IMG/VR virus record: IMGVR_UViG_3300021197_001563
Coordinates: 1-51,763 of that record
Reading direction: 5' to 3' (one strand)
DNA length: 51,763 nt
Source: a virus
Shown: one piece after another, positions 3,239-29,934 of the stretch
Layout of the letters: each line of letters starts with the position of its first letter
Numbering within the stretch: position 1 is the first letter of the stretch
Program-made: the position numbers and the translations under genes
Notes under the pieces: model-generated
Databases searched by the model: none
Told to the model about the DNA's origin: nothing
Seen by the model: the letters and a program-made list of their open reading frames with translations, nothing else

Positions 3239-3554
3239 GACTTGGGTACAACTGACGCAAGACTTCGTCAAGGAATGGCCGGAGGTTCTAGAGGGACTAC
3301 ACTTCCAGAACATGCCGGTCAAGTACCTGCTATACATAAACATCATTCTAAAAAATAATATCACAATACACTACGACATAGCCAAAGAGTTAAAGAGTAA
3401 AAAACAGGAAAGCATCGCAAGGTTCCTAAGGAAAACAATAGAAGATAACTATCTCAAGATAAAGACTGTGGATATGAAATTTGATATACCATCTTTAAAA
3501 AGAGATATGGAATCTCGAACTTCGTTAATAATGGCTAAGACTTTTAAGAAATAG
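3210..3554 (+). CDS. 114-aa hypothetical protein (possible phage transcription accessory factor)
   Basis: I chose the ATG at 3210 (MPKRQPPKNKTW), 29 bases inside the preceding gene; an earlier in-frame ATG at 3171 is possible but adds a segment that only mirrors the neighbouring frame. The protein is basic and mostly helical, with NMPVKYLLYINIILKNNIT as its central segment. The size, position after small conserved genes and basic helical character would allow a gp33-like late-transcription accessory role, but I see no decisive motif, so that is a weak guess. Its end overlaps the convergent gene on the other strand by 11 bases. Confidence 0.6.
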   Translation: MPKRQPPKNKTWVQLTQDFVKEWPEVLEGLHFQNMPVKYLLYINIILKNNITIHYDIAKELKSKKQESIARFLRKTIEDNYLKIKTVDMKFDIPSLKRDMESRTSLIMAKTFKK

Positions 3555-4845: not shown

Positions 4846-5893
4846 AAAATTTATTGATCCTCTCACATATGTAAGTCACTTCATCCATCTCAAGGTGTGG
4901 ATATATAGGCAAACTCAATGCCATGGCACAAACCTTTTCAGCATTGGGGTATTGTCCGATATTCATACTGTCTAATGTCTTAGGATAATGTATTTTAGTC
5001 TCTATACCGTTTTGTGCAAGAAATGTTTTCAATTCATCTCGCCTATCGGATAGAATTACTAACTTGTGATGACTGGATTTTGTGTTGTCTTGCGATTCTA
5101 TAAGAAGACTATCTGGTAATAGTTTTTTATATCGTTTGAATACCTTCTCCCTCTTCTTCTGCAGTTTATCAAATTTGCTTAACAACAACAGTAATTGGTT
5201 TGCATGATCTTCGGATATTAAACTGTTGTACCCATATGTCAAATTGCTGTTCTGTCCGTGCCTACGTAACGATATCACTGCGTCGTACACATCCTTGCTG
5301 TCGGTCAGCACCATACCACCTGTGCCAAAACTAGGCATGTTCTTCATAGGATCAAAACTGAAAACGCTGACATCTCCTAGAGAACCTGACGGGGTCTTGC
5401 CATGTACCGCTCCCTGTGATTGTGCGGCATCTTCTATCAAGGGTATCTTGTGATTATCACAGTATTTTCTTATCCTGGTGTAGTCTGCCGGATTCCCAAA
5501 CATGTTGACATAGAGAATTGCATTTGGTAGGCCCATTATGCCCCAGTCACCTATGTTTCCATTTTCATCTGTGTCAACAAATCGTATGTCTGCACCCAGA
5601 CGTCTGATCGCACCCGCGGTTGCCACGTAACTAAATGCTGGACACAGTACCGTACTACTTTTGTTTAGACCAACTGCCTTCATGGCGAAGTACAGTCCGT
5701 CTGTGGCACTGCCCACACCTATGGCATATTTCCGTTTGTATTTTTTTGCTATTTCTGTTTCCAGTTGGTTGAGGTACTTGCCTTGTAGGACGTCTCCAGA
5801 CTCCCATACTGCTTTGGCTCTTCTTGAAAGTCTCCAACTGTAATCCTTGTAGAGCCTGTCAACACCATTAAATTTAATTTTGTAGCCAGTCAT
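4838..5893 (-). CDS. DegT/DnrJ/EryC1/StrS-type PLP aminotransferase
   Basis: The 351-residue protein has the usual length and order of sugar aminotransferases. GSATDGLYFAM near residues 61-71 forms the cofactor phosphate region, and EDAAQSQGA (155-163) contains the pyridine-nitrogen Asp. SFDPMKNMPSFGTGG places the Schiff-base lysine at K184. These enzymes move an amino group from glutamate onto a keto-sugar nucleotide. The gene overlaps the upstream epimerase by 20 bases and the downstream GT-like gene by 8, so the three are probably co-translated. The immediate epimerase/aminotransferase pairing suggests synthesis of an amino sugar for transfer by the island's glycosyltransferases. Confidence 0.9.
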   Translation of the reverse strand: MTGYKIKFNGVDRLYKDYSWRLSRRAKAVWESGDVLQGKYLNQLETEIAKKYKRKYAIGVGSATDGLYFAMKAVGLNKSSTVLCPAFSYVATAGAIRRLGADIRFVDTDENGNIGDWGIMGLPNAILYVNMFGNPADYTRIRKYCDNHKIPLIEDAAQSQGAVHGKTPSGSLGDVSVFSFDPMKNMPSFGTGGMVLTDSKDVYDAVISLRRHGQNSNLTYGYNSLISEDHANQLLLLLSKFDKLQKKREKVFKRYKKLLPDSLLIESQDNTKSSHHKLVILSDRRDELKTFLAQNGIETKIHYPKTLDSMNIGQYPNAEKVCAMALSLPIYPHLEMDEVTYICERINKFYV

Positions 5894-6818
5894 AATAACT
5901 TTTTAGTCCTTGATCTAGTGTAAACTGTGGTTCATACTCCAGCAAGTCTTTTGCCCTACCAATGTCTAGTGTACCACGCATTGGATACAGTTTGTGATTG
6001 CCGATGTCCTCTATGCCTGAATCGCTACCTGTGATATCTATAATTTTTTCTGCCAATGTCCTCAGGCTTGTGGCGTTGCCGGCCGTTATATTGAAACTGA
6101 CGTTGGCCACAGATGACAGAGCCGCTAGTATTATACCTCTTGCCGCATCTTGCCTGTACGTGAAATCAACTTTGTTTTCACCATTGTGTAATGTGATTGT
6201 TTTGTTGCTCATTGCTTTCTCGAAAAATTTAGATACTACCCTGTCAGGCATGTCGCCGGGTCCATACACACCGCTTGGTCTTATGATGTTGTAGTTCAAC
6301 CCATCTCTCTTTGCAAACAGTTTAACCATACGTTCGCCTGTCAGTTTTGCTTCACCATAAATGTTCTTTGGCTTTGTGTTTGCATCTTCTTTGGTGCCAT
6401 CTACAAAATCTCCATAAACCATACTGCTACTAATATAAACAAATTTTTTAATATTCCATTTTGACGAGTGCCACAATAAATTAGTGGTTGTGTTGATTAC
6501 TTTTGGGATTCCAAGAATAGGATCTTCGTCGACTATTTTTGCTCTGGGATAAGTTGCTAAATGAATCACTATTTCTGGATTGTGTGAAAATGCTTTCAAG
6601 CAAACAAGCCTATCCAGTATATCACCTGGTATCATTGACACGTTTTCTGATTTCCAATTCCTGGTTCGCCATTCGTAGAGTTTATCTAGTTCCTGTTTGG
6701 TCATTATGCCATATGTGTCATGATTATCAACAACTGTAACCGTGTGCCCGTCATTGGATAACATCTCCACAATCTTCGAACCTATGAAACCTTTTCCGCC
6801 TGTTACTAAAATTTTCAT
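5874..6818 (-). CDS. NAD-dependent epimerase/dehydratase (extended SDR)
   Basis: The 314-residue protein starts MKILVTGGKGFIGSK, the GxxGxxG dinucleotide-binding motif at residues 7-13. The catalytic serine cluster is YISSSMVYGD (about 128-137) and the YxxxK pair is Y154-G-E-A-K158. IRPSGVYGPGD is the typical substrate-side motif of nucleotide-sugar epimerases and dehydratases. Length is normal for UDP- or GDP-sugar enzymes; the exact sugar cannot be read from sequence. Its ATG overlaps the stop of the carbamoyltransferase (TAATG). Confidence 0.9.
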   Translation of the reverse strand: MKILVTGGKGFIGSKIVEMLSNDGHTVTVVDNHDTYGIMTKQELDKLYEWRTRNWKSENVSMIPGDILDRLVCLKAFSHNPEIVIHLATYPRAKIVDEDPILGIPKVINTTTNLLWHSSKWNIKKFVYISSSMVYGDFVDGTKEDANTKPKNIYGEAKLTGERMVKLFAKRDGLNYNIIRPSGVYGPGDMPDRVVSKFFEKAMSNKTITLHNGENKVDFTYRQDAARGIILAALSSVANVSFNITAGNATSLRTLAEKIIDITGSDSGIEDIGNHKLYPMRGTLDIGRAKDLLEYEPQFTLDQGLKSYYDWLQN

Positions 6819-8281
6819 TACAGTACTTTTACCTTGTATTTGTGTGTCCAGTCTTTACCATCTTTGGTGTCATTTACCATGGGCATGCCCTTGATGTTCA
6901 AACTAGTATTCAAAAGTATGGGACAACCTGTCTCTTTCTTCCATGCTTTGAGTAGTTCGTAAAACCCTTCATTGTCGCTTTTTGACACGGTTTGCACCCT
7001 AGATGTGCCATCGTGATGCAATATGGCAGGACAGTCTTTACCATGCGTGTACGCCGCTGTGTATTGCATATAAGGGGTGTTTTTGACGCCTGTAGGGAGG
7101 GCAAAATAGTCGTTTACATCCTCTTCCAGTATGGCTGGAGCGAACGGTCTGAACTTCTGTCTCTTCTTGATTCCATTTACTAGATCCTTGATCTCCTCAC
7201 CCCGCGGGTCTGCTAGTAATGATCTATTACCAAGTGCTCTCGGTCCGAACTCTGCTTTACCATTTGCAACTCCCACCATTTTGTTTTCTTTCAATTCTTT
7301 AATTATTGCGTCCACAGGATACTCACCTTCGATGTTGTGTCCCAGGAACGGGCTCTTCCAGTTGATGAATGATTTTTCGTGTGCCGCTATGCAACCCAAA
7401 CTGGATCCTGCATCTCCCGGATTTGGTATTATCCATATGTTGTCAAACAATCCTAGGTTTGCAAGTACCTTGTTGGCCGCACAGTTGAGTGCCACTCCGC
7501 CGGCATATACCAAATTACGTGATCCATACTTGCTGGCCCTGTGCCACAGATCTGCAAGGCATTCTTCTGTGACTGCCTGTATGCTGGCCGCAAGGTCCAT
7601 TGGATCTGCTTCCGGATGCCATTCACTCAGTCCCCTGTGTAAATTTTTCTTGAGTTTGAAAGGTGACTGATGCACGAAGTCATTGTATATGTCTTCCTTG
7701 TATTTGGGTTCGCCGTATGCGGCCATGCCCATCAAAATATATTCTTCTTCTGCGGGTTTCAATCCACAACGATGTGTGAACGCACTGTAGAGTATTCCTA
7801 TGCTGTGTGGATACTTGATCGTTTCTTTTCTCTCAATCCAAACTTTATCAGCAGTTGATATGGACACAGTGTCCCATTCTCCTATTGCGTCCACTGTGAG
7901 AATCGTTGCTTCTCTGAAAGGTGATGTGAAATAACCTGCCGCGGCATGTGAGTCATGGTGTTTCACATACTCATCTATCTTGATTTTAAAGTGATCCAGG
8001 TGCCATTGAGGCATCTCTGTATAACTGAAAGCGTCTGCCCATTGTCCTGCGTACAGTTGTCTTGTTTTCTTCAGCCAAGGTTTCTCGTAGTAAACGACCT
8101 TGTCAAAAGGACCGTAAGTCATTGCTTCATTTACTATGTGCCAGTTTAAGTAATGATCATTTTTTACTTTTGAATAACGTTCTGCATGTGCGGCCCATAG
8201 CACTTCACCTATACCTGAACTGTAATCTACGACACTCATAGATGCATCATGGTTCATGCAATTTATACCTAGTATCTTCAT
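6818..8281 (-). CDS. NodU/CmcH/TobZ-family carbamoyltransferase
   Basis: The protein has 487 residues when started at the ATG overlapping the TrxB stop (MKILGINCMNHDAS); the longer frame runs back into trxB. The N-terminal kinase-like domain has NHDAS at the start, HHDSHAAAGYF near residue 108 and VYAGGVALNCAANK. The C-terminal domain carries the family hallmark EFGPRALGNRSLL. These enzymes use carbamoyl phosphate and ATP to place a carbamoyl group on a hydroxyl of a sugar or antibiotic. At 487 residues it is shorter than the ~570 residues of TobZ, but both domains are present. Together with the aminotransferase and epimerase it points to a decorated sugar. Confidence 0.9.
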   Translation of the reverse strand: MKILGINCMNHDASMSVVDYSSGIGEVLWAAHAERYSKVKNDHYLNWHIVNEAMTYGPFDKVVYYEKPWLKKTRQLYAGQWADAFSYTEMPQWHLDHFKIKIDEYVKHHDSHAAAGYFTSPFREATILTVDAIGEWDTVSISTADKVWIERKETIKYPHSIGILYSAFTHRCGLKPAEEEYILMGMAAYGEPKYKEDIYNDFVHQSPFKLKKNLHRGLSEWHPEADPMDLAASIQAVTEECLADLWHRASKYGSRNLVYAGGVALNCAANKVLANLGLFDNIWIIPNPGDAGSSLGCIAAHEKSFINWKSPFLGHNIEGEYPVDAIIKELKENKMVGVANGKAEFGPRALGNRSLLADPRGEEIKDLVNGIKKRQKFRPFAPAILEEDVNDYFALPTGVKNTPYMQYTAAYTHGKDCPAILHHDGTSRVQTVSKSDNEGFYELLKAWKKETGCPILLNTSLNIKGMPMVNDTKDGKDWTHKYKVKVL

Positions 8282-9228
8282 TAGGATTCCTTTGCGGCTA
8301 GATATTTCTCGGCCTCTAGTGCGGCCATGCAACCCATTCCTGCGGCTGTGACTGCCTGCCTGTAAGTTTTGTCCTTCACATCTCCCGCGGCATAAACTCC
8401 GGGTATATTTGTTTCTGTACTATCTGGCCTAGTGATGATATAATTTTCATCGTCCATTTCTATCTGTCCTTTGAAAATTTGTGTTGCTGGGTCATGTCCT
8501 ATTGCTATAAACACACCATCAACGTCTACAGTTGCAGTGCCTAAGCCAAAATCATCTTTTGTATTTTTTAATTTCACACCAGTCACATTGAGTGGATCGT
8601 CATTTCCGATCACTTCTTCTATTTGGCTATTCCATATAACTTCTACTTTTGGATTGCTAAACAACCTATCTTGTAATATTTTTTCTGCCCTTAGACTGTC
8701 TCTTCTGTGTACAAGGTAAACTTTACTAGCAATATTCGTCAAGTATAATGCTTCTTCAACAGCACTGTTACCGCCACCCACCACTAATACTGTTTTGTCT
8801 TTGAAGAAAAATCCATCACAAGTGGCACAGGCACTTACACCATAACCGTTAAATTTCTTTTCACTGTCTATGCCCAGCCATCTTGCTTGGGCGCCTGTGG
8901 ATATGATCACACTGTCTGCCGTGTATGTTTCACCGCTTTCACCTACTGCCTTGAAAGGCCTTTGACCAAAGTCCACTGACTTGATCATGTCTGTGATGAT
9001 ATCGGTCCCTACACTCTTCGCCTGTTGTTGCATCTGTTCCATCAACCACGGACCTTGTATCACATCACCAAACCCAGGATAGTTCTCAACATCTGTTGTG
9101 ATGGTCAACTGTCCTCCCGGTTGTGTGCCTTGCACCATCATTGGCTTCAGCATGGCCCTCGCCGTGTATATTGCCGCCGTGTATCCTGCGGGTCCTGATC
9201 CTATTATCAATACTTTTGAATGTTTCAT
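8281..9228 (-). CDS. trxB: Thioredoxin reductase
   Basis: The protein has 315 residues from the ATG at 9228, which is preceded by a strong AGGAGG site six or so bases upstream; the ORF could be extended seven codons but loses that site. The FAD-binding motif is IIGSGPAGYTAA, the redox-active pair is C134-A-T-C137 and the NADPH-binding motif is VVGGGNSAVEEA. AAGDVKDKTYRQAVTAAGMG is the C-terminal FAD motif. It reduces thioredoxin or a similar carrier using NADPH. It overlaps the upstream rubredoxin-like gene (ATGA), so the two should be made together. In this operon it could supply electrons to the radical SAM proteins, which is inference. Confidence 0.95.
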   Translation of the reverse strand: MKHSKVLIIGSGPAGYTAAIYTARAMLKPMMVQGTQPGGQLTITTDVENYPGFGDVIQGPWLMEQMQQQAKSVGTDIITDMIKSVDFGQRPFKAVGESGETYTADSVIISTGAQARWLGIDSEKKFNGYGVSACATCDGFFFKDKTVLVVGGGNSAVEEALYLTNIASKVYLVHRRDSLRAEKILQDRLFSNPKVEVIWNSQIEEVIGNDDPLNVTGVKLKNTKDDFGLGTATVDVDGVFIAIGHDPATQIFKGQIEMDDENYIITRPDSTETNIPGVYAAGDVKDKTYRQAVTAAGMGCMAALEAEKYLAAKES

Positions 9229-9380
9229 TGTGTTTCCTCCTGGTGCCATCCTAAATCCTCTATTTTTATACTGTTACACTCTGGACATACCCAGCCTTCT
9301 TCTGTATCGAAGTCCTGTGCCAGTTCCTGAGCCACCCCTCGCCACTTACAGTCATAGCAATACCAGTTCCACCATGTCAT
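9225..9380 (-). CDS. 51-aa rubredoxin-like / zinc-ribbon protein
   Basis: This ORF is short but bounded by ATGA overlaps on both sides: its ATG (9380) overlaps the stop of the GNAT-like gene, and its stop overlaps the trxB start. Two CxxC knuckles are visible, C8-Y-D-C11 and C32-P-E-C35. The second sits in GWVCPECNSIKIEDL, close to the WVCPxCGxxKxxFE pattern of rubredoxins. It is also Trp-rich at the N-terminus (MTWWNWY). It could bind iron (electron transfer) or zinc; the glycine that usually follows the second cysteine of each knuckle is missing, so iron binding is not certain. Its final codons contain the Shine-Dalgarno of trxB. Confidence 0.75.
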   Translation of the reverse strand: MTWWNWYCYDCKWRGVAQELAQDFDTEEGWVCPECNSIKIEDLGWHQEETQ

Positions 9381-9935: not shown

Positions 9936-10040
9936 TTATTTGTATATGAATGGGTCTTTCTTTTTCAGCTCTTTGAGTCTCTTCCTGTACTTGATCTCTT
10001 GTCGGATCTTGTTGATCAGGTTCTTAATCCATGTGAACAT
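9936..10040 (-). CDS. 34-aa highly basic helical peptide
   Basis: The ATG at 10040 overlaps the stop of the SGNH-like gene (TAATG) and the ORF ends one base before the GNAT-like start. The product, beginning MFTWIKNLINKIRQEIK, has about a dozen Lys/Arg and reads as one amphipathic helix. There is no family match I recognise. It could be a regulatory microprotein or even the substrate of a modifying enzyme in the island, but that is speculation. The perfect fit into the gap is the main support. Confidence 0.45.
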   Translation of the reverse strand: MFTWIKNLINKIRQEIKYRKRLKELKKKDPFIYK

Positions 10041-10831
10041 TATTCTACTCCTATCAGTTTATTAAAAGTTGGTAACATTAATTTTACAGCATCTTGGTGT
10101 GCGTCGTCAAGTGGATGTGTTGTACCTTTTTCATAATCATTGAGAGTCGCCCATTGGTTAAATCCCATCATTCTCTCGCCGAACGAGAACCATTTGGTAA
10201 AATCAATCTCATCATACAGTGCCTTCATGAAAGGATCCTGATCTTTGTGTTGCTTGAATTCGTCATAGAACAAGGTGTTGTCTGCCAGTGTGAACATGAA
10301 CGGTATTTTCTTCTTCTCCAAGATGTTCTGCAACCAGATGATGCTCTTCCAACTGAGGTACGTCTCATGGTACTGGTTGGCCGCATATTTGTATATGGCT
10401 TCTGCAAAAGGTTTAACTCCTGTTTCTATCATTGACTCTGCTCTACGTTTCCAATGTGCCTGCTGTGCTTCTGATCCTTCTATTGCTTGATGCCTTTCGT
10501 CACTAGATATGGATGTATCCCATGGTGACATCGAGGTCCAACGTGTGTCTTCTAACTCCCTATGTCTAGGCATGGCCCAATCATATCGTGAATTGAAACT
10601 CCACATTACTACGACTCCTTCAACGTCATCACTGTTGGCCACTGCGTTAAAAACACGTCTGGAAATGCCACTATTTCCAGAACCTGGATATGCCGTGCAT
10701 ACGTATTCATGGTCTTGTGGTTTCAACCCATAAGCCCATGTGTTCTTACTAGGAATCTTGCCTTCCTGATCATCACTGAGTTCATGCCCAAACGTGAAAC
10801 TGCAACCGCCTGCTATGAATTTTTTAGTCAT
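10040..10831 (-). CDS. SGNH-hydrolase-like protein
   Basis: The 263-residue protein starts MTKKFIAGGCSFTFGHEL, where the GGCSFTFG segment sits like the GDS block with serine as nucleophile. AYPGSGNSGI follows (the Gly block), and THPLDDAHQDA near the C-terminus supplies the D..H pair of block V. An Asn between these (WSFNSRYDW) could be the fourth block. SGNH enzymes remove or move acyl groups, often on polysaccharides. A deacetylase or acyl-transfer role on a glycan is plausible but unproven. The start overlaps the end of the first radical SAM gene by 8 bases. Confidence 0.6.
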   Translation of the reverse strand: MTKKFIAGGCSFTFGHELSDDQEGKIPSKNTWAYGLKPQDHEYVCTAYPGSGNSGISRRVFNAVANSDDVEGVVVMWSFNSRYDWAMPRHRELEDTRWTSMSPWDTSISSDERHQAIEGSEAQQAHWKRRAESMIETGVKPFAEAIYKYAANQYHETYLSWKSIIWLQNILEKKKIPFMFTLADNTLFYDEFKQHKDQDPFMKALYDEIDFTKWFSFGERMMGFNQWATLNDYEKGTTHPLDDAHQDAVKLMLPTFNKLIGVE

Positions 10832-12005
10832 ATATTTTCAAAATGTTATTTAAAAGTGGAAACATGTCTCCAAAATTTTCTTTCCTGTACTGATCCGTTT
10901 GTAGTATTCTTCTTTTTCTTTCTGCTCGTATCTCAGGTGTGTCCCTGTCAGCGGCATTCATGAACCTTATGCTGGGTTGATAGTCCGTGAGCATGTGATA
11001 CCTGTCCACCACTATGTCCTTGACCTGCTTGGGCAGTGTCTGTATGTTGAACACGTCTGGGTCAAAGCATGTATTGACATAGAAAAATTTAGGTTGGAAC
11101 TGTGCCACCCACAGTGCCATCTTGGCCCAGTTGAACACGTTGAAAATAGACACTGTAGAACATATCTGGAAGTCCATGTTTGGTATCTTCATTTCCTTGA
11201 ACTTGACAAGATTTTGATTTACTTCCCTCCAGTTTGCTGGATGCCGTTGATATTCAAAAGGTTCTCCCACATCATCAATGCTGAACGCCACTTCAACGTG
11301 TTTGAAGTAACTCCACAGATCAAATATTTCCTGTGGTGGCAACTGCGTGCCATTGGTGTTGTAGTGTATGTCTATGTTCCGGGCGTATCCCTTCTCCACG
11401 CAGTGCATCAGGATCTTGAAGTGATCCTTGATCATGAACGGTTCACCGCCCGTGAACTCGAAGTACTCCACGTGTTTGAGATCCTCCTGTAACTCCTCGA
11501 AGAACTGTGGGTTACGTTTTGGCCAGCCGCCCTCCTTGAGTTGTTTCCTGGCAACAGGATTGTCTCCACCCCTGGCTGTCTCATAATCTATTTCTTCCTG
11601 AGCCCATTTTGAGGAACTCCACGATCCACATATCCTGCACTTGAGATTACACACGTTGCCCAACTTAAAGTCAATGAACTTCAGTGCCGGCTCGCTATCG
11701 GGTGTCCATTCTTTTAAACTTTTCTTCATCTTGTATATTGAATTCTGTCTCTTTGATGTTTTTCCTGCGTCCTCCTCCTGCCAACAACTCTGGCATCCGT
11801 TAGGACGTCCACCGTTTCTAAACTGTGCTCTAAGATTGTCCATGTACTCTGTGTCTTGTATAGACTTTAAACTTTGTTCGTACACTTTAACTCCAGGAAT
11901 GCTACCTTTGTATAGACAGCAAGGTGACGCACCGCCATTTACATCAACTTCCAGATGAGTCCACGGTAATGGACACACATTTGATTTTATATACTTGTCC
12001 ACCAC
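10824..12005 (-). CDS. Radical SAM protein with N-terminal twitch module (array member 5)
   Basis: The 393-residue protein starts at a GTG (12005; GTG at 12002 is equally possible). The radical SAM cluster motif is C119-NLK-C123-RI-C126, followed by SSSKW; FTGGEPFMI (after ~165) is the SAM-binding GGEP motif. Before the barrel, residues 1-80 hold C11 (CPLPWTHL), C29-C30 and C71-Q-S-C74, a four-point cysteine set like the single-cluster twitch domain, here placed N-terminally. It belongs to the N-terminal twitch radical SAM group seen in marine phages; substrates are unknown. It is the last of five such genes and overlaps the gene before it by 19 bases. Confidence 0.88.
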   Translation of the reverse strand: MVDKYIKSNVCPLPWTHLEVDVNGGASPCCLYKGSIPGVKVYEQSLKSIQDTEYMDNLRAQFRNGGRPNGCQSCWQEEDAGKTSKRQNSIYKMKKSLKEWTPDSEPALKFIDFKLGNVCNLKCRICGSWSSSKWAQEEIDYETARGGDNPVARKQLKEGGWPKRNPQFFEELQEDLKHVEYFEFTGGEPFMIKDHFKILMHCVEKGYARNIDIHYNTNGTQLPPQEIFDLWSYFKHVEVAFSIDDVGEPFEYQRHPANWREVNQNLVKFKEMKIPNMDFQICSTVSIFNVFNWAKMALWVAQFQPKFFYVNTCFDPDVFNIQTLPKQVKDIVVDRYHMLTDYQPSIRFMNAADRDTPEIRAERKRRILQTDQYRKENFGDMFPLLNNILKIYD

Positions 12006-13321
12006 TCTAACGCCTTTTTGTTTTTTATTAATATTTTTTTGATATCTGTACCCCTGATCCTATCTAAACGTTCGACTTCTGCTTTGCCTTGTTTCTGTCC
12101 CTTCTTATATAACTCTTCATCATACACTAACTCATTGTTTCTCTTTTGTTTCTGCATTTCATCCAACTGTGCAAAGAAGTTGTTTAAATTTTTATTCTTG
12201 TATTTGATTGTTTTTTCCCGTGCATCATCTATTATCTCACTCATTATTTCGTATGGCATGAACAACGGTGCCATGGCATTGTCGTGTGAGAAATTGAAAA
12301 CTTGTTTTGTCAGCAATTCGATGTTTAATTCATTACTCAATAATACCATGTTTTCCAAATCAAACAACCCTGGTAGTGTGATTGTCAGATCTAACTGCAT
12401 CCTTTGATTTTGCTGTTTTACAAACTGTAATCCATATTTCATATTTGCTTTCCATTCGTCATACTTCAATCCAGTCCTGATGTATTCTCCCACTTCTCCT
12501 GTTCCGTCGATCGACGCACATATTTGCCAATTTGGAAAATGTTTTAATATATCATCAAACAGGTTGTATTTGTAAAAATTGATCCTACTCATGTTGGAGT
12601 TATACCTTGCCAACACTTGATCTTGGTAACCTAGTTCAACAATCCTCTTCATCGCTTCCCAGTGTATCTTCCACATCAAAGGTTCCCCACCGCACCAGTA
12701 CAATTCAGTGATACGCTTCTCTTCGACCGCCTGTGTGAACTCTTTCACTACCTGCTGATCGTGGAATTGTGCTAATTGCTCTTTGATGTCTTTCCTACCC
12801 CAGATCCTGTCATTGTCGTAGTCGCCTTGGCCGTGTTTTCTGTTTTCTGCTTCCCACGTACTGCTCAACATATCACCACACATCCTACAACTGAAGTTAC
12901 ATAGGTTTGAGAACCTGTAGTCAAAACTTTCTGTCTGCATTGTGGTAGCACCCGTTTCGTCTGTGCTGGCGTATGCCTCGTCCACTTTGTTTTTGTACAA
13001 CCAATTGAAGTGTTGCCTGTACACCTGTTCATTCAGCAGTTTGTGATTGCACACAGCACACTGCGGAATCTCTTCGCCGGCTAGTAACTTCAATCTCACA
13101 CTCTTCATGTAGTCTGAATTCCAGTGTTGATCTAGTGTTGTTAGATTGATTTTATCGTTGTATCCTTTTGGATCTATCGTGTCTATGTACTGCTTGAAGT
13201 TCTCCGAGGACTCCCTCGAACTGCAACACAACCTTCTCTCCATCTGAGGTGACAGGTACGTGTGCGTCCACGGAGCCATGCAGAATGTCTTGTTGCCGTC
13301 TTTAGGTTTTATTCTTGTCAT
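11987..13321 (-). CDS. Radical SAM protein with N-terminal twitch module (array member 4)
   Basis: The protein has 444 residues from the ATG at 13321; a TTG at 13330 would add three residues and is less likely. The radical SAM motif is C141-NFS-C145-RM-C148, followed after a few residues by SSTW. YWCGGEPLM is the GGEP motif. The N-terminal module has C14 (CMAPWTHTYL), C32-C33 and C88-A-V-C91. The region between module and barrel is longer than in member 5, and the C-terminus is rich in Lys/Asn (helical). It overlaps both neighbours. The reaction and substrate cannot be deduced. Confidence 0.88.
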   Translation of the reverse strand: MTRIKPKDGNKTFCMAPWTHTYLSPQMERRLCCSSRESSENFKQYIDTIDPKGYNDKINLTTLDQHWNSDYMKSVRLKLLAGEEIPQCAVCNHKLLNEQVYRQHFNWLYKNKVDEAYASTDETGATTMQTESFDYRFSNLCNFSCRMCGDMLSSTWEAENRKHGQGDYDNDRIWGRKDIKEQLAQFHDQQVVKEFTQAVEEKRITELYWCGGEPLMWKIHWEAMKRIVELGYQDQVLARYNSNMSRINFYKYNLFDDILKHFPNWQICASIDGTGEVGEYIRTGLKYDEWKANMKYGLQFVKQQNQRMQLDLTITLPGLFDLENMVLLSNELNIELLTKQVFNFSHDNAMAPLFMPYEIMSEIIDDAREKTIKYKNKNLNNFFAQLDEMQKQKRNNELVYDEELYKKGQKQGKAEVERLDRIRGTDIKKILIKNKKALEWWTSI

Positions 13322-14600
13322 ACTTGTCAAACAGTTCTTTCCATTCAGGGAACACGTCTAAGGTTTGCTCATTCCTCATTTTGTCATATTTCTTCGTTTG
13401 TTCTATATGCAGATCTAGATGCTTCTGGTTGTCCTTTTCTAGCATCCATTTGATTGCTGATTCGTATCCCTTGGTTGCTCTGGTTAATGGATCCTTGCCT
13501 TTCAGCCATTCTATGTGTGACTCGTATTTTTCTTTGACCTGCTTTTTGTATTCTGATGGTAGTATGTCCATTCTCTGCCATAAAGGATGTTGTAAAAGAT
13601 TGAAGTTGAAATCTGCAGGTTTGATTAAACCCTGCTCCACCCAGCTCTTATGAAAATCAGTCACATGCAAACTGTTAACCAATCCCACGGTTGATGAAAT
13701 GTAGAAATCTACCTGTGGACAAACTTCCATCATACGTTTTCTGTTTGCCACTATTTCTTGCCACACAGTTCCCTTACGCATTAGTTCCGCCCTTGGTCCT
13801 TCCGCATCCAGGCTGGCTCCGATCGAGACCGAGTCAAACTTGTTCCATAGTTCAAACACATCAATATCCTTGAATGTTGTTCTACTGAAGTTTGTGTTGT
13901 AGATCAATCTCACATGATACATTTTACGTTTGTCTAATTCTTTCAATATCCTGTAATGCTCTTCCATTATGATAGGTTCACCACCTGCAAAATAGAACTG
14001 CTCGGTGTGTTCAAATGATTCTAACATCTGTTCCCACATGTCGTTTGTGGACCTTCCCACTTTCATTACCTTGGCGTGTGGTGGTGGACTGCCTGTTAGT
14101 TTTTTATGATCTTCGTACCAGTTACTGCTGAACCACGTACCACAACTCCTGCAGGCCATGTTACACAAGTTTGAGAAACGTATGTCCCAGTACTTCATCA
14201 CGAAGTCCGCTTCGCCGTCTGGTAGTGTGTTGTGTACCAAGGGAATGTTGTGACCAAAATGTTTGTTTGAACTTAGACGCAGTGAAAAGAACCCCGACTT
14301 CTCTTGATCGTAGCATTTCATACATTCACGTGATTTCTGGTTATTCAACATCCTGACTCGCATTTCTTTCATTTTGTCACCGTTGAAAACTTCTTTTAAA
14401 CTCTGCTTGTTTAAATCGCCGACAGGATAGGGATCAAAAGAGAAACAACAAGGGTACGCCCTGCCATCCGGATATGCATGAAGATGCATCCATGGTAACA
14501 TACAGAAAGTATCACTCTCTATCAACAACTCCTTTTCCCTAGGAGTCATGTCTTTAATTTTTAGTTTCTCGGGCTCTTTTGCCCCGTACTCATATGCCAC
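13302..14600 (-). CDS. Radical SAM protein with N-terminal twitch module (array member 3)
   Basis: The protein has 432 residues from a GTG at 14600, supported by GGAG nine bases upstream. The N-terminal module shows C33 (CMLPWMHLHAYPDG), C51-C52 and C93-M-K-C96. The radical SAM triplet is C146-NMA-C150-RS-C153, then FSSNW; YFAGGEPIIM carries GGEP. The DG between first and second cysteine sites and the CC pair make this subgroup (members 3-5) look like the CxxPWxHL...CC form found in SPASM/twitch proteins. The start overlaps the end of member 2 by 11 bases. Confidence 0.88.
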   Translation of the reverse strand: MAYEYGAKEPEKLKIKDMTPREKELLIESDTFCMLPWMHLHAYPDGRAYPCCFSFDPYPVGDLNKQSLKEVFNGDKMKEMRVRMLNNQKSRECMKCYDQEKSGFFSLRLSSNKHFGHNIPLVHNTLPDGEADFVMKYWDIRFSNLCNMACRSCGTWFSSNWYEDHKKLTGSPPPHAKVMKVGRSTNDMWEQMLESFEHTEQFYFAGGEPIIMEEHYRILKELDKRKMYHVRLIYNTNFSRTTFKDIDVFELWNKFDSVSIGASLDAEGPRAELMRKGTVWQEIVANRKRMMEVCPQVDFYISSTVGLVNSLHVTDFHKSWVEQGLIKPADFNFNLLQHPLWQRMDILPSEYKKQVKEKYESHIEWLKGKDPLTRATKGYESAIKWMLEKDNQKHLDLHIEQTKKYDKMRNEQTLDVFPEWKELFDKYDKNKT

Positions 14601-15933
14601 GGTACCATTCTCCTATTATTGGGAAAGTCTTTTCAAAGTCCTTTCCTGTTCGTTTGTCGTATTGACTGTAAAATGCTTTAAAATCTTTTTGCAGTTTACT
14701 CTGTTCGGCCGCCCCTGCGTGTGGCGTCTTAACAACATCCAGGTAGTCGATCAGTCTTTGTGTTTGATTGATTTCCATGTGTTCTAGATGTTTTTCATTG
14801 TTATTTAAAAACTTTACCAAGTCCAGTTTAAATTTATTTCTCAGATCGTCCGGTAACACAAGCGGTGATTGGAAGCTCGGAAACCTCAATATGTTCAGTG
14901 TGAAATTGACCTCTGGTCCATACACTTTACTTGCATTCTTGAACCACACCATTTTCTCCAACAGTTGAGGCAGTGACTCCAAACACAGTGCATTTATGGT
15001 GCACATATTGTGGATAGCACGTGGAACTTTGTCCACCATCATGTGCAAGACGTTAGAGTACCAATCTCCGTACACCAATCCATCTCTGATGTATTCTGCT
15101 TGTCCAAATGTTGCTTCACAACTGGTATACAATTCAAAGTTATCAAACTTTTTTAATTTTGTTTTAAATCTATCAATAATACTTTGTTTTGCACCTAGGT
15201 TGGAGTTTATTGCAAGAGTCATGTTAGGATTCATTTTGTCACCCTGTGTCTCTATCCAATCTAGAAGTCTCCACAGGTTGGGTGACATCATTGGTTCACC
15301 ACCTGTTATTCTCAATTCATCTAGGCTCTTGTGTAGGTCTGTCTCCCACCATTTGTAGAATGCTTCAACGTAAGGATTTGTTTCGTCTTTTTTATAAGGC
15401 TCTGCACTCTCATGACTGTGTGTGAAATGATTGCGTCCATCAGTTACCATATCTGTGTATGGTCCTTGTCTTTTAATGTTGTTTGCCCATGTAGAACTAA
15501 ATGCAGGATTACAATATGTACAAGCAAAGTTACAGGTCCTGTCAAATGCTATCTCCAGTGTCTTTAGATTGACATCCGTGTTGTGGTCTGTTGTGTGAGC
15601 ATAGTCCAGTGCCTCATTTGTGAATATTTTTGACTTGTAGACCCTGTCACTGATGTTATCTCTTTTGATGTCCTCTATCTTCCAACAGTACTCACAGCCC
15701 TTTGGTCTTTCTCCACACTGCATCTGTTTACGTTCTAGTTTCTTTTGTAGTGTGTTGTGTATTGCACTAGGATTTGTTTTAATTTCTTTTAGATCAATCT
15801 TGTGCGGGAGTGGATGGTGACAACTTGTGGTCATGCCACTGCCCAACCATATGGTCGCATTGTACCACTTGGCTCCACAGAAACTTGCACTCTTTGTGTC
15901 CAGTATTTGTTTTTTGTATTCTAAATCATTCAT
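14590..15933 (-). CDS. Radical SAM protein, second subgroup (array member 2)
   Basis: The protein has 447 residues from the ATG at 15933, which forms an ATGA overlap with the upstream stop; a GTG four codons earlier sits too close to the GGAGGA site. The N-terminal module is of a different form: C19 (FCGAKWYNATIWL), C38 (SCHHPLPHKID) and C80-E-Y-C83, with no CC pair. The radical SAM motif is C134-NFA-C138-TY-C141 then FSSTW; RITGGEPMM carries GGEP. It is clearly closest to member 1, sharing the NP.A.HNT..K...R.QM segment, so these two arose by duplication. Confidence 0.88.
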   Translation of the reverse strand: MNDLEYKKQILDTKSASFCGAKWYNATIWLGSGMTTSCHHPLPHKIDLKEIKTNPSAIHNTLQKKLERKQMQCGERPKGCEYCWKIEDIKRDNISDRVYKSKIFTNEALDYAHTTDHNTDVNLKTLEIAFDRTCNFACTYCNPAFSSTWANNIKRQGPYTDMVTDGRNHFTHSHESAEPYKKDETNPYVEAFYKWWETDLHKSLDELRITGGEPMMSPNLWRLLDWIETQGDKMNPNMTLAINSNLGAKQSIIDRFKTKLKKFDNFELYTSCEATFGQAEYIRDGLVYGDWYSNVLHMMVDKVPRAIHNMCTINALCLESLPQLLEKMVWFKNASKVYGPEVNFTLNILRFPSFQSPLVLPDDLRNKFKLDLVKFLNNNEKHLEHMEINQTQRLIDYLDVVKTPHAGAAEQSKLQKDFKAFYSQYDKRTGKDFEKTFPIIGEWYRGI

Positions 15934-17300
15934 GCGTTTCTGCACTCCTCCCAGAATTCTTCCATCTCAGGGAAGGTGTTAAGGAATCTTGTGAGACGTC
16001 TGCGATCGTGTTCGTTAAAGAAAGCGTAAAAGTTTTTTCTATTTTGCGTACTTGCGTCCGCGTTTTCGCGCCAGTATGCGAGATTTCGTTGCATCTTCTG
16101 GATCTCGAAATCTTTGAATATGTGTAACCCGTTTGACTCACCGGAATTGTCCTGCATGTATTTGATGTTGTCCTCGTGTATCGCCTGAAAACTTTCTGGT
16201 AGCAGGGTTATCTGTTGCCATGCTGGTTGCCTCAGCAGTGGCACGTCGAACCACACCCTCTGGTAGGTCTTGGAATATTTGGTCCTCAGTTCCAGTATCT
16301 TCTGTAATAGTTTGTCCATGCTCGTGATACTCAGATTGTTGTATGTGCATATGAACGTTATTGAATTACGTCCTGGTATGCGATCCAGGAATTCTTCAAC
16401 GTTGTCCATCATGTAGTTGAAGTCCAATCCGTCTCGAATGTACTCCGCACGTTTGCCCCATGCGTCCACGCTGACGAACTGCATCATGTGTTCCACTTTC
16501 TCCTGCATACATATCTCCTGTGCCATGTTGAAGTACTTCTCCTTGAGCTTCTTGTCCGGCGGACACATGTTGCTGGTCACGTTGAGGTGTAGGTCCTGTT
16601 TTGGATGATCTATTATGTATTGGAAAACCTTGTAGGTGTTCTTGTCCATCATGGGCTCACCGCCGGTCATACGGAAGTGCTTGAGATTCTTGTACAGCGT
16701 GGGCCACCATCGCCAGAACGCTGTCACGTAGGGATTGTCCTCCCTGTTGGGTATGGGCCTGCGCCTGCCCTGGAAGTGTTCTGGTGCGTTGTGGGGAGGA
16801 GATGTGGGATATTGGCCATACCTGTCGATCTCCTTCGCCCACGTGGTCGAGAACTGTGGGGAACAATAACTGCACTTGAAGTTACAAGCGTTGTTGAAGT
16901 TCACCTCCACGTATCTCGGTGTCCAACTTGTTGTCATTGGATTCTTTCTTATTTCATCGAAGTCCTGCATGGCCCATGGTTCTCCCGAACGGTAGTGCCT
17001 GTCTGACATCTCCCCTGTCTTCTCCATGTTCCAACAGTATGAGCAACCCTCGGGTTTCTCACCTTTGAGCATCTGTTGTCTTTGATTCAATTTCTCCGCT
17101 GTGTTGTGCAGTGCGGCTGGATTTGTCTGTAATTTCTCAGCATCTATCTCATGCAATGGTGGGTGATAGCATGAATTGGTCAGTCCTGTTGGTAGGTGTA
17201 ATGAGGTCTGATTCCACTTGGCCAGGCACATGGTCGGAGAAACTTGTTGCAGTTTTTCCTTGGCCTTGAGTGCATCTGCTTTGTAGTCACTAGTACTCAC
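15930..17300 (-). CDS. Radical SAM protein, second subgroup (array member 1)
   Basis: The protein has 456 residues from a GTG at 17300 with GGGGAG nine bases upstream. The N-terminal module is C25 (MCLAKWNQTSLHL), C44 (SCYHPPLHEID) and C86-S-Y-C89, matching member 2 position by position. The radical SAM motif is C139-NFK-C143-SY-C146 then FSTTW; RMTGGEPMM carries GGEP. It is the first of the five-gene array and follows directly on a glycosyltransferase-like gene (11-base overlap). Base composition in its middle part appears higher in GC than its neighbours, which may mean separate acquisition. Confidence 0.88.
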   Translation of the reverse strand: MSTSDYKADALKAKEKLQQVSPTMCLAKWNQTSLHLPTGLTNSCYHPPLHEIDAEKLQTNPAALHNTAEKLNQRQQMLKGEKPEGCSYCWNMEKTGEMSDRHYRSGEPWAMQDFDEIRKNPMTTSWTPRYVEVNFNNACNFKCSYCSPQFSTTWAKEIDRYGQYPTSPPHNAPEHFQGRRRPIPNREDNPYVTAFWRWWPTLYKNLKHFRMTGGEPMMDKNTYKVFQYIIDHPKQDLHLNVTSNMCPPDKKLKEKYFNMAQEICMQEKVEHMMQFVSVDAWGKRAEYIRDGLDFNYMMDNVEEFLDRIPGRNSITFICTYNNLSITSMDKLLQKILELRTKYSKTYQRVWFDVPLLRQPAWQQITLLPESFQAIHEDNIKYMQDNSGESNGLHIFKDFEIQKMQRNLAYWRENADASTQNRKNFYAFFNEHDRRRLTRFLNTFPEMEEFWEECRNA

Positions 17301-18183
17301 GGTCTTGAACTCCCCTGTTACTGTGTTGTGGCATCACGAACCTATAGAATCTACTCTGATCTTCATTGTATTCTGCAATTGACATGTCCAGTTGTTGACG
17401 CAGGCTATTTCCATACATCAAAAGGTCTGTGTCGATGTCCTGAGGAGATTGATCTTTGTAGTACGATTCCATGTTGTCCAAATCACGTATGTGAAAATGA
17501 TTGCTGTTGGCCTGTATAACTGTGTTGAAACAACCCATCCTGGCGCCTAACATAGCGTACTTGCCTAATTCAACATCGGCACCTATCGTGCACCAGGTAC
17601 TCAAGATACGCAGGTTGTTTGGCCAAATTTTATGAAAATCTTCGGCAGGAATAGGCTTGCCTTTTTCGGTGCTCATCTTTACACCTTCCCTGTAACCTGC
17701 AACGAATGCCTGTTGTTCTGATCCATTGATTACAGTAGTAGAGTAGCAGTTGTGTAAGTTCTCGTGTGGCACTCCCCAACAAAAATCAATTTGGGTTTCA
17801 TCTTTGTCTGCGTTTTCATGCGTCTTCATGTTTAGACATGTTTCCTTTTGCCATCCAACTAACCCGCCATTGCCATACACTAAACCATTAACATTATTTT
17901 TTGCTCTCCATCTATGTACTGCTTTTGGATTTGTTTTTTCCCAATCCAGTGTCTCTAATAAAAATCCTTCATCAATAATGTTATCTCCGTCAACTGATAT
18001 AAAGAAATCTGTTTCTGCTTTTTCCGCCGCGGCCTTGTGTGCTGAATCGAATCCAACAACGCCGTCCACACGCTTCGCCCATGGCACTTTGTTTTTCAGA
18101 TCCGCCCAGTTCTGTTCCTTGTTAGGTTCCTTAAACGAAATGTATACAAAATCTAAGTCGCTTACTCTGACTCTATCTGCCAC
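17290..18183 (-). CDS. GT-A-like glycosyltransferase with DGD motif
   Basis: The 297-residue protein starts at a GTG (18183) backed by a strong GGGGGAG site about six bases upstream. AETDFFISVDGDNIIDEGF has the sugar-nucleotide/metal DxD as D65-G-D67. The first ~60 residues alternate strands and helices as in the GT-A nucleotide-binding half. The C-terminal half (FVAGYREGVKM, LSTWCTIGADVELGKYA) matches the GT-like protein at 3544-4845, which lacks the DxD. Donor and acceptor are unknown. It sits directly in front of the radical SAM array. Confidence 0.7.
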   Translation of the reverse strand: MADRVRVSDLDFVYISFKEPNKEQNWADLKNKVPWAKRVDGVVGFDSAHKAAAEKAETDFFISVDGDNIIDEGFLLETLDWEKTNPKAVHRWRAKNNVNGLVYGNGGLVGWQKETCLNMKTHENADKDETQIDFCWGVPHENLHNCYSTTVINGSEQQAFVAGYREGVKMSTEKGKPIPAEDFHKIWPNNLRILSTWCTIGADVELGKYAMLGARMGCFNTVIQANSNHFHIRDLDNMESYYKDQSPQDIDTDLLMYGNSLRQQLDMSIAEYNEDQSRFYRFVMPQHSNRGVQDREY

Positions 18184-18467
18184 GTGACTCCCCCTTCTGC
18201 TATTTCATTAGGCCAGTGTATGTCATCATCATGGAAGTAGTACCCTTTGTCTGCCTTTATTAATGTTGTGTGTTGTGTTTTTAGTTTTGGTGGTGGCTTC
18301 AGTGCAAATTCTGTTGGGGATATCCAATGATATGCTTCCTCACCATGTCTTTGCACTTCTAATTTTTTTTCTAATGTTACAACAACATTTTGTCCACTTA
18401 TGCATACAGTATGCACCTTTGGTCCCCTCTTGGGCATCTGTTTGAGTGCATCAAATATATTTGCCAT
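18162..18467 (-). CDS. 101-aa hypothetical protein
   Basis: I chose the ATG at 18467 (MANIFDALKQMPKRG) because AAGGAG lies just upstream; the open frame goes 22 codons further but only through the end of the preceding glycosyltransferase gene. The protein seems to be a small beta-rich fold (VHTVCISGQNVVVTLEKKLE, then IHWPNEIAEGGVTWQ). It has no membrane segment or recognisable motif. It overlaps both neighbours, so it is part of the island operon. Function unknown. Confidence 0.6.
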   Translation of the reverse strand: MANIFDALKQMPKRGPKVHTVCISGQNVVVTLEKKLEVQRHGEEAYHWISPTEFALKPPPKLKTQHTTLIKADKGYYFHDDDIHWPNEIAEGGVTWQIESE

Positions 18468-19245
18468 ATAACTCCTTGTCGTAGTAGTGCCATACTCTGG
18501 ATACTCTCTTTTCTCCAAGATAGATATTGTCACCTGTTCTGTTGGTGTACAGATAATTGTTTTGATCTCGTTTGTTCATCAATCCGTTGATCCCTGGCTT
18601 GTGGTGTAGGAACTTGAACCATTCGTAGTCTATAAGTTTCTTGTTCGTAGGGTCAATTAATCTGTAAGCGAGTGCGTATACCACATCAGTGCTAGGATAA
18701 GTGTCATGACAGTTAATCAGCATCTTTGTTTTTACCTCATTCCAGTTAGTTGTTATGTCTTCGGCTAACTTGAAAAATCTTTGTGCCCATTTGCTCTTCC
18801 TAAAATAGATCATTCCGTTGTAGATGTTGGGCAGGCGATTTCTCACAAAGAGATCCCGATAAGGTGAATGCTTGACCACGTGATCTTTGTAATCCCTGCA
18901 ATCAACACTGAACACAAGATCATGTTGCCATAGATGGTACCACCACCAATCAGTGTTAGTGGTCCACAACATATCACTTTCAAGTTTAATTGTGTGTGTA
19001 AACGGTGTTACGGAAAATGCTTTGTATTCATTTGCCCATTTCATCTCGTGCTCTGCACTGTTATCGTCACTTAATACTTTCACTACATCCACAGACTTAT
19101 GTTGAAACTTGCTATTCTCATCTGTGACTACACAAATCTTGTTTTCCTTGTTGTGTTTCTTTATGCTCTCTGCCAGTTTTATAGACAACTCTACGTAGTC
19201 TGTGTTTTCGTTATTTTGTGCAAACCATAGAAATCCTTTAGACAT
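18451..19245 (-). CDS. GT-A-like glycosyltransferase, probable
   Basis: The 264-residue protein has MSKGFLWFAQNNENTDYVE at its start, a helix, ICVVTDE, then PFTHTIKLESDML, where E89-S-D91 stands where GT-A enzymes have the DxD. NIYNGMIYFRKS and the later WFKFLHHKPGINGL fit the acceptor-side half of GT8-like proteins. The ATG is preceded by AAGGAG seven bases upstream. It resembles the neighbouring gene 19238-19987 in size and motif order, so the two may be distant paralogues. The sugar is unknown. Confidence 0.6.
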   Translation of the reverse strand: MSKGFLWFAQNNENTDYVELSIKLAESIKKHNKENKICVVTDENSKFQHKSVDVVKVLSDDNSAEHEMKWANEYKAFSVTPFTHTIKLESDMLWTTNTDWWWYHLWQHDLVFSVDCRDYKDHVVKHSPYRDLFVRNRLPNIYNGMIYFRKSKWAQRFFKLAEDITTNWNEVKTKMLINCHDTYPSTDVVYALAYRLIDPTNKKLIDYEWFKFLHHKPGINGLMNKRDQNNYLYTNRTGDNIYLGEKRVSRVWHYYDKELYGKYI

Positions 19246-19987
19246 TGATCGACTCCTTGTTTAGAACATGCACATCCTGGTCTTCGATGTAGTTGATGTT
19301 ATCCTTGTACTGCCATGCAACACCCGTGTCTGTGAACTTTACTATCTTACAATCAGGTGGCAGTGTGGCCAGACGAATTGGCAATGTATCGTAATTGATG
19401 AAACCGTTTGCCTGTTCTAGTGCTATTGCAAAGGCGTAGTCATTACGGAAATTTTTCCCATACACCCTATACAACTCATTGAAATACGCATAATAATGTT
19501 TCACATACTTGACCATGTCAAATATACGCTTGGCTTTCGCACCTTTACGAAAAACAAACACTGTTGCCCATACCATGTCTATTAGGCTCCAACGTCTGTG
19601 ATCAAAACTATTCCTGTTTGTTAAATCATAGGCCTCCTTGGATATCAGAAAGTCATAATCCGTTTCTAGGAACTGCCTGAGGTTGTCTGTGAATGGAAAG
19701 TAGTCTATGTCCATGACCAGCGTTGTGTCGTATGGCGACAGCTCGTAGGCCATGTGCCTATCCACGTTTCGCCATTCCTTGCCATTCTTCTTGTTGCCCA
19801 ACTCCGGTTCAATCAATTTGTAGTTGATGAACCCCAAGGGTCTCATCTTTTTAAATGTCTCGTGATTGGTTACGACTGTGATTTCCAGTTGTAGGTTTTT
19901 CTTAATCAACCCTACACAACGTTCTAGTACAGTGTGGTACTTTGTTTCAGGTGTATCAAAACAGAATAGTAGTATGCCTTTAGTCAT
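19238..19987 (-). CDS. GT-A-like glycosyltransferase, probable
   Basis: The protein has 249 residues from the ATG at 19987 (MTKGILLFCFDTPE); a TTG four codons earlier is less likely. The motif YDTTLVMDIDYFPFTDNL contains D93-I-D95, the expected GT-A metal motif, preceded by a helix and LEITVVTNHE. ATVFVFRKGAKAKRIF and NDYAFAIAL resemble the glycogenin/GT8-like back half. It overlaps the next gene by 8 bases and the previous by 8. Likely transfers a hexose in the island's pathway, but this is inference. Confidence 0.6.
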   Translation of the reverse strand: MTKGILLFCFDTPETKYHTVLERCVGLIKKNLQLEITVVTNHETFKKMRPLGFINYKLIEPELGNKKNGKEWRNVDRHMAYELSPYDTTLVMDIDYFPFTDNLRQFLETDYDFLISKEAYDLTNRNSFDHRRWSLIDMVWATVFVFRKGAKAKRIFDMVKYVKHYYAYFNELYRVYGKNFRNDYAFAIALEQANGFINYDTLPIRLATLPPDCKIVKFTDTGVAWQYKDNINYIEDQDVHVLNKESINV

Positions 19988-20300
19988 TTCTCTTCTCAAA
20001 TGTTTTTGACATTTGGTGATATGAACTCATGGCCTCCTGATTTCTTTCTACCAAAACATGCAAAAGCTCTTTTGAGTTTGAAACTTCCATCGGATTGTTG
20101 TTTGTGTCTAGAATGTAAAACGGTGAAGAATGAACTTCTTCCAATGTTTTAACTAGATTGATTGTTTCGGCATCTGCACGAAAGATGTGTTCGTTGTAAA
20201 CTACCACCAGTCGTGAATGTGCTTTCTCCAGGGCGTTGCGTTTTGCAATAGCAACGTCGAAGGAAAGGTCAGATTCCTTTTTTAATGAGCCAATATCCAT
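19980..20300 (-). CDS. 106-aa hypothetical protein, first gene of the accessory operon
   Basis: The protein is soluble: N-terminal helix (VAIAKRNALEKAHSRL), two strands (VVVYNEHIFRA, SPFYILDTNNNPMEV) and a long C-terminal helix. I do not recognise the family with certainty. The ATG at 20300 has no Shine-Dalgarno, and a sigma70-like promoter ends seven bases before it, so the transcript may begin at the start codon. No other in-frame ATG, GTG or TTG lies near the N-terminus. Confidence 0.65.
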   Translation of the reverse strand: MDIGSLKKESDLSFDVAIAKRNALEKAHSRLVVVYNEHIFRADAETINLVKTLEEVHSSPFYILDTNNNPMEVSNSKELLHVLVERNQEAMSSYHQMSKTFEKRND

Positions 20301-20319
20301 ATTACAATTATACTGTAAT
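20301..20319. repeat. Inverted repeat ATTACA-N7-TGTAAT over the -10 region
   Basis: ATTACA at 20301-20306 pairs with TGTAAT at 20314-20319, with a 7-base centre that contains most of the TATAAT. A repressor bound here would block the promoter. It could equally be a chance AT-rich palindrome, since six-base arms are short. Confidence 0.3.
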
Positions 20320-20335
20320 TATGGTGGTATTGCAA
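20307..20335 (-). promoter_or_regulatory. Sigma70-like promoter, TTGCAA-17-TATAAT, for the accessory island
   Basis: On the minus strand TTGCAA (20335-20330) is followed by 17 bases and a perfect TATAAT (20312-20307). The expected start of transcription falls on or next to the ATG at 20300. It lies in the 54-base gap between the structural protein gene and the island. It matches the plus-strand promoter at 2315-2343 in both hexamers (one base different) and spacing, which strengthens both calls. Confidence 0.65.
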
Positions 20336-29926: not shown

Positions 29927-29934
29927 TATTTATT
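29927..29934 (-). promoter_or_regulatory. Possible late promoter AATAAATA overlapping the giant gene's stop
   Basis: AATAAATA on the minus strand shares its middle with the TAA stop of the 4347-aa gene and ends seven positions before the A of the next ATG (29920). With T4-late geometry the transcript would start within a base or two of that ATG. The stop codon accounts for part of the match, so chance cannot be ruled out. Confidence 0.35.

Follow-up and report, generated by a model that had tools for sequence, protein, structure and literature searches.

Five radical SAM genes with an N-terminal twitch domain

We analysed a 51,763-nucleotide stretch of virus DNA (IMG/VR record IMGVR_UViG_3300021197_001563, positions 1 to 51,763; hereafter the window), in which five consecutive genes for radical S-adenosylmethionine (SAM) enzymes occupy the minus strand from 17300 to 10824. 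These stop-free open reading frames (ORFs), named A to E in transcription order, extend over 15930-17300 (A, 456 amino acids (aa)), 14590-15945 (B, 451 aa), 13302-14600 (C, 432 aa), 11987-13330 (D, 447 aa) and 10824-12005 (E, 393 aa), all on the minus strand. By the curated cut-off of 170 bits, each is a member of NCBIfam NF033640 (N_Twi_rSAM, twitch domain-containing radical SAM protein), with whole-protein scores of 289.6 to 400.2 bits (A 329.6, B 289.6, C 400.2, D 312, E 365.6). The Pfam model Radical_SAM (PF04055) matched all five, over its cut-off in E and below it in A to D, and the Pfam SPASM model matched the N-terminus of C and of E. Neighbouring genes overlap by 11 to 29 nucleotides if the longest ORFs are taken, whose start codons are GTG or TTG; counted from its first ATG, the start of B forms an ATGA overlap with the stop of A. 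A first-pass annotation had described five intact genes, each with the motifs CxxxCxxC, GGEP and S[ST]xW and each starting before the previous stop, and the reading frames, the presence of all three motifs in 5/5 enzymes, the family scores and the overlaps bear this out.

Pairwise identities among the five enzymes are only 20-33%, and from their sequences A to E are old, divergent enzymes, not recent copies. All five genes are under strong purifying selection, with a ratio of non-synonymous to synonymous substitution rates (dN/dS) of 0.02-0.08 between the window and a near relative (L006). In a tree of 119 proteins, built by a quick method with support from the Shimodaira-Hasegawa-like approximate likelihood ratio test (SH-aLRT) only, A and B grouped together (SH-aLRT 100), as the first-pass annotation had proposed, whereas C, D and E, which it had placed in a second subgroup, fell into separate clades.

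Each enzyme carries four N-terminal cysteines (C33/C51/C93/C96 in C; C25/C44/C86/C89 in A). These four and the three cysteines of the radical SAM cluster are retained in every one of the 69-94 distinct orthologues per type. For A and B, whose second twitch cysteine lies one residue later (C44 in A), the invariance of this position was checked on a smaller set. The type C profile matches the twitch of BtrN, the 2-deoxy-scyllo-inosamine dehydrogenase (PDB 4m7t, residues 183-257; E 2e-7), with the four conserved cysteines aligned with BtrN cysteines. In BtrN, the twitch consists of a cysteine before a beta-hairpin, a cysteine after it, and two cysteines after a helix (PMC6231123). In the AlphaFold2 model of C, DSSP assigned strands at 39-42 and 47-49, between C33 and C51, and a helix at 75-85, followed by C93 and C96. 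Both models were confident, with a mean predicted local distance difference test score (pLDDT) of 95.2 and a predicted template modelling score (pTM) of 0.91 for C, and of 94.0 and 0.91 for A.

On these sequence matches, the N-terminal domain of A to E is homologous to the BtrN twitch, and the domain order is changed: the twitch is C-terminal in BtrN and precedes the barrel in 5/5 of our enzymes, with no BtrN-type twitch after it, and the core sequences are far apart. Each enzyme would thus have two predicted cluster sites, the twitch cysteines meeting at one site by homology. The four-cysteine module proposed at the outset is therefore confirmed as invariant in orthologues and aligned with the twitch ligands of BtrN, and the predicted fold and this alignment do not refute the proposal, for which N-terminal cysteines lying apart in predicted structures had been named as counter-evidence. 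We did not find the seven-cysteine SPASM motif for two auxiliary clusters in A to E, which have four invariant N-terminal cysteines and one nearly invariant neighbour. BtrN was absent among the fold matches listed for A and C, which could be expected given the changed domain order and is evidence neither way.

Conservation and origin of the five-gene set

We assembled a phage sample from viral-contig searches with C, A and D, together with seven phage-like contigs from a genome scan. The resulting 173 phage loci reduced to 93 independent contigs, with 64 arrays uncut by contig ends; being gathered by similarity to A, C or D, this sample says nothing on phages without these genes. The full A-E set was present in 56 of the 64 uncut arrays, in the order ABCDE (35) or ABCED (14), or accompanied by additional N-twitch genes, in some cases a sixth member (7). 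The remaining eight held A alone (4), A with three C-like genes (2), a single C-like gene (1) or mostly unclassified genes (1), and partial loss of the set was seen in none of the 64. Across the whole set the five genes have correlated distances, but much less so among 42 close relatives (0.05-0.6), and alleles, D and E above all, have been exchanged between related phages. Since every slot remains filled during this exchange, we read A to E as encoding what are probably five required, non-interchangeable functions.

Decay of such arrays to pseudogenes, named in the first-pass annotation as an observation that would argue against a dedicated pathway, was not seen among these arrays, and we rejected it also for 14 relatives, in which only two of the matches over the family cut-off contained stop codons (one of them a copy of A). 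A dedicated multi-enzyme pathway is well supported by the complete sets, the lack of partial loss, the dN/dS values and the organisation as one operon. The interpretation in the first-pass annotation is partly supported; a reading of the five as paralogues that one phage kept by internal duplication is not. As a separate observation, one phage contig (L159 6906-9113) encodes a single N-twitch radical SAM protein of 735 aa at the place within the operon that is taken by five genes in other phages.

The set is carried by large aquatic bacteriophages, most of them uncultured, from many aquatic samples. Of 50,697 records of phage isolates, none matched A or the glycosyltransferase-like gene that overlaps it (GT-A-like, below), and C matched only distant genes in the Vibrio phages K566 and K567 and one single-cell contig. 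The baseplate protein of the window is nearest to those of jumbo phages such as Atu_ph07, Phosso, PA5oct and RaK2 (34-45% identity).

We additionally identified relatives of all five types in one cluster of a Bacteriovoracaceae chromosome (L092), which by reading adjoins obgE- and rpmA-like genes. A, B, D and E each fall in a supported clade with a member of this cluster; for C, Bdellovibrionota relatives lie nearby in the tree, in a tentative grouping. Six Bdellovibrionota genomes contain 10-17 N-twitch matches each, some of them weak; the islands that contain the relatives also encode further radical SAM proteins, B12-radical SAM proteins and proteins of PhyH/WelO5 and MBOAT-like type. We rejected internal duplication as the source of A to E from the tree, as relatives of the five types occur together in a Bdellovibrionota chromosome, indicating that the types diverged before or outside this phage lineage. 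From these sequence relationships the five-gene set looks older than this phage group, and it looks to have moved between phages and Bdellovibrionota, either direction being possible. Elsewhere among bacteria, an Elusimicrobia metagenome-assembled genome (L098 601-13716) encodes five tandem proteins of 543-1078 aa, in which TPR-like repeats seem to be joined to N-twitch radical SAM domains.

The operon and its neighbouring genes

By gaps and overlaps, the operon unit is larger than 17300-10824, reaching from a gene for a 106-aa protein at 20300 to an SGNH-like gene at 10040. In the 54-base-pair gap before it lies a putative sigma-70-type promoter (TTGCAA-N17-TATAAT; 20307-20335, minus strand). 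This motif was found upstream of 35/47 relatives of the 106-aa gene against 23/836 other ORFs, and in its strict form upstream of 27/47 against 5/836; it also precedes the gene in distant phages whose DNA there differs greatly. The operon thus probably relies on a sigma-70-type promoter of its own, apart from the fibre genes, which lie just upstream in most loci (20355 family; 43/45 close and 21/28 distant loci). The T4-type late promoter TATAAATA was absent from the window.

The first gene (19980-20300, minus strand) encodes the 106-aa protein, which is present in 42 of 45 close loci and 21 of 28 more distant ones, belongs to no Pfam family and is a possible fibre-assembly protein. It is followed on the same strand by two putative glycosyltransferases of GT8-like type. 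The first (19238-19999) has a DxD-like motif, MDIDY, and a weak match to a glycogenin profile (E 0.5), and its family is present in 83/93 independent contigs; the second (18451-19245; phrog_1903, function unknown) is assigned by its motif and a very weak glycogenin match. A small protein with no family (18162-18533, minus strand, probable start 18467) is kept in 42/45 close loci. The last gene before A, and overlapping it, encodes a GT-A-like putative glycosyltransferase (17290-18183, minus strand) with an invariant DGD motif, whose match to PF00535 (GT2) lies below the cut-off (E 0.0014; 13.7 bits against 23.3). This family occurs in 91/93 contigs, immediately upstream of the first radical SAM gene in 56/63, and in all 56 of these the two genes overlap. 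PF01501 (GT8) matched none of the glycosyltransferase-like neighbours of the array, in which DxD-like motifs are present, and profile comparison gave no match between the GT-A-like and GT8-like families.

Downstream on the minus strand, the SGNH-like protein (10040-10831; motif GGCSFTFG) overlaps E and has no Pfam match of its own, with relatives in 74/93 contigs and at nine bacterial N-twitch loci. A carbamoyltransferase (6818-8332, probable start 8281) belongs to the NodU/TobZ type by Pfam (PF16861 and PF02543), although it scores far below the NodU equivalog cut-off; it is present in 53/93 contigs and at four bacterial N-twitch loci. Beyond it lie an NDP-sugar epimerase/dehydratase (5874-6818), a DegT/DnrJ/EryC1-type sugar aminotransferase (4838-5893; best model PseC, below cut-off) and a second, larger member of the GT-A-like family (3544-4866). 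Also downstream of the array, a full-length thioredoxin reductase is encoded at 8281-9249 (TIGR01292, 423 bits), a conceivable source of electrons for the radical SAM enzymes.

Candidate functions of the five enzymes

We give about even chances to A to E being a stepwise sugar- or glycan-tailoring cassette. Each enzyme would bind SAM on its CxxxCxxC cluster and generate a 5'-deoxyadenosyl radical, which would take a hydrogen from a sugar carbon; the electron might then pass to the fully cysteine-ligated twitch cluster, by analogy with BtrN, whose twitch cluster has been proposed as electron acceptor (PMC9012708). The outcome may be oxidation, epimerisation, dehydration or a similar reaction. 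Because every slot is always filled, the five enzymes probably carry out five different steps, or act at five different sites, on one glycan. The overlapping GT-A-like and GT8-like proteins would build or transfer this glycan, and the carbamoyl and acyl-type enzymes would complete it. Our guess, which could equally fall either way, is that the adjoining glycosyltransferase-like proteins set the sugar unit, which is then edited in up to five steps. The target could be a glycan of the phage fibres or a host surface polysaccharide; the position of the operon favours the fibres, and its separate promoter argues against a purely late structural role.

Further N-twitch loci point to sugars. In the isolated Vibrio phage K566 (L273 13977-21716), four N-twitch-like genes are interleaved with a GT4-like gene and two genes that pass the Pfam cut-off for GT8; this phage provides both an independent lineage supporting the sugar link and an experimental handle; a viral scan with its GT8 protein found nothing. 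Where a phage carries A alone, the gene is accompanied by genes for a sugar phosphate cyclase of the dehydroquinate-synthase type, a sugar nucleotidyltransferase, a fructosamine-kinase-like protein and a short-chain dehydrogenase/reductase (SDR) (e.g. L256 10557-15565), which by sequence resemble a cyclitol pathway. Relatives have, by reading, another cluster in which N-twitch enzymes occur together with GalE-like and SDR genes. At bacterial N-twitch loci, carbamoyltransferase, GDSL, PMT_2, DegT and GT2-like genes occur nearby, a raw Pfam tally that has no background rate and is suggestive only. We also count for the sugar reading that GT-A-like, GT8-like, SGNH-like and carbamoyltransferase genes recur around the array at the frequencies given above, that the slots remain filled during allele exchange, and that the substrate of BtrN, with its homologous twitch, is an aminocyclitol. 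Of the two substrates suggested in the first-pass annotation, the putative glycan fits the gene neighbourhood better than repeated peptide sites.

Several points weigh against glycan tailoring. The three glycosyltransferase-like neighbours (17290, 18451, 19238) have no Pfam match over cut-off and are known from sequence alone. Peptides are as frequent as sugars among the substrates of twitch and SPASM enzymes. The AlphaFold2 models of A and C matched radical SAM cores at Z 12-14, those of BlsE, SkfB, anSME, SuiB, DesII and viperin, covering sugar, nucleotide and peptide enzymes alike, so that these models do not tell the substrate apart. The carbohydrate enzymes BlsE and DesII were among the best core matches (Z 12.6-13.8), but through the shared barrel only, and SkfB and anSME scored equally well. 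Many further N-twitch genes of these phages stand singly among replication, chaperone and baseplate genes, without sugar context, and are covered by none of the explanations considered here; examples lie between SbcD- and SbcC-like genes (L278 7447-11100) and beside groES/groEL (L279 5547-6677).

Modification of proteins, in which each enzyme would install a cross-link, epimerisation, thioether or oxidation at a different site of tail fibres or small operon proteins, is the strongest alternative, although we consider it unlikely. It agrees with the fibre genes just upstream in most loci, with an aspartyl/asparaginyl hydroxylase-type oxygenase (PF05118; 24166-24831) among them, with the presence of anSME, SkfB and SuiB among the best fold matches, and with the small conserved operon proteins, which could serve as substrates or carriers. 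However, the gene joined to the array by overlap is GT-A-like, the bacterial and K566 relatives accompany sugar genes, and the sigma-70-type promoter sets the operon apart from the fibres. The peptide-recognition domain RRE/PqqD was matched in none of A to E (Pfam, NCBIfam), although anSME, which modifies sulfatases, lacks one as well.

An auxiliary metabolic pathway, acting during infection to make a small diffusible molecule or to modify a metabolite or lipid of the host, the molecule being tailored by the glycosyltransferase-like genes, would account for the mixed Bdellovibrionota islands and for the operon having its own promoter, but seems quite improbable, as carrier protein, ligase and exporter are not conserved in the phage operon and the operon keeps a constant position in the fibre region. 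A loosely linked pile-up of N-twitch genes as independent accessory cargo, which might be read from the 5-15 N_Twi_rSAM matches per record in the relatives G011-G024, many of them scattered singletons, and from the free exchange of D and E alleles, is very improbable and already disfavoured, since it predicts many phages with random A-E subsets, of which the uncut arrays held none, and is opposed by the orthology, order and completeness across 56 arrays, the strong purifying selection and the relatives of each type in one bacterial cluster.

A broader form of the glycan-tailoring proposal, which we offer tentatively and hold to be less likely than not, is a five-slot assembly line common to large aquatic phages and Bdellovibrionota, which would rewrite a polysaccharide carbon by carbon, with interchangeable alleles as a serotype-like code altering the surface sugar of phage or host.

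We found no assigned reaction or role for the NF033640/N-twitch family, and neither a fixed five-type set nor coupling to a glycosyltransferase is part of the family definition. In pelagimyophages, radical SAM cassettes lie in a host-recognition cluster near fibres and glycosyltransferases (PMC7029224), and the twelve radical SAM genes of a T4-like genome have been discussed as Fe-S proteins (PMC5332604). The available parts of both accounts share with our phages the marine myovirus setting, radical SAM genes near tail fibres and glycosyltransferases, and many such genes per genome; these parts treat the genes as Fe-S proteins or flexible cassettes, and do not take up subfamily, orthology, order or mechanism. 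In the open literature searched, we found no paper on the N-terminal twitch, nor on radical SAM enzymes with SPASM domains in connection with exopolysaccharide. The enzyme family and the phage habit of carrying radical SAM genes are known; new are the five-member set in its fixed form and its link to glycosyltransferase-like genes, neither of which we found in that literature, together with the counterpart of the set in bacteria.

A set that remains complete despite exchange of its members, and that nearly always adjoins one putative glycosyltransferase, makes a defined pathway, with candidates in order, out of what had been a loosely described auxiliary gene. If glycan tailoring is correct, no longer series of radical SAM reactions on a single sugar structure would be known so far, and the set would be a source of new sugar chemistry. 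It might also help explain the Fe-S assembly genes of some marine phages, reported in PMC5332604.

The window has two further features: a glycine-rich structural protein (24824-26257) with a C-terminal Hint-like segment of the intein/Hedgehog type (GCFIAGTMISMADGSLKPVEQVDIGDTV), and a single ORF of 4347 aa (29930-42973) between the baseplate and fibre genes.

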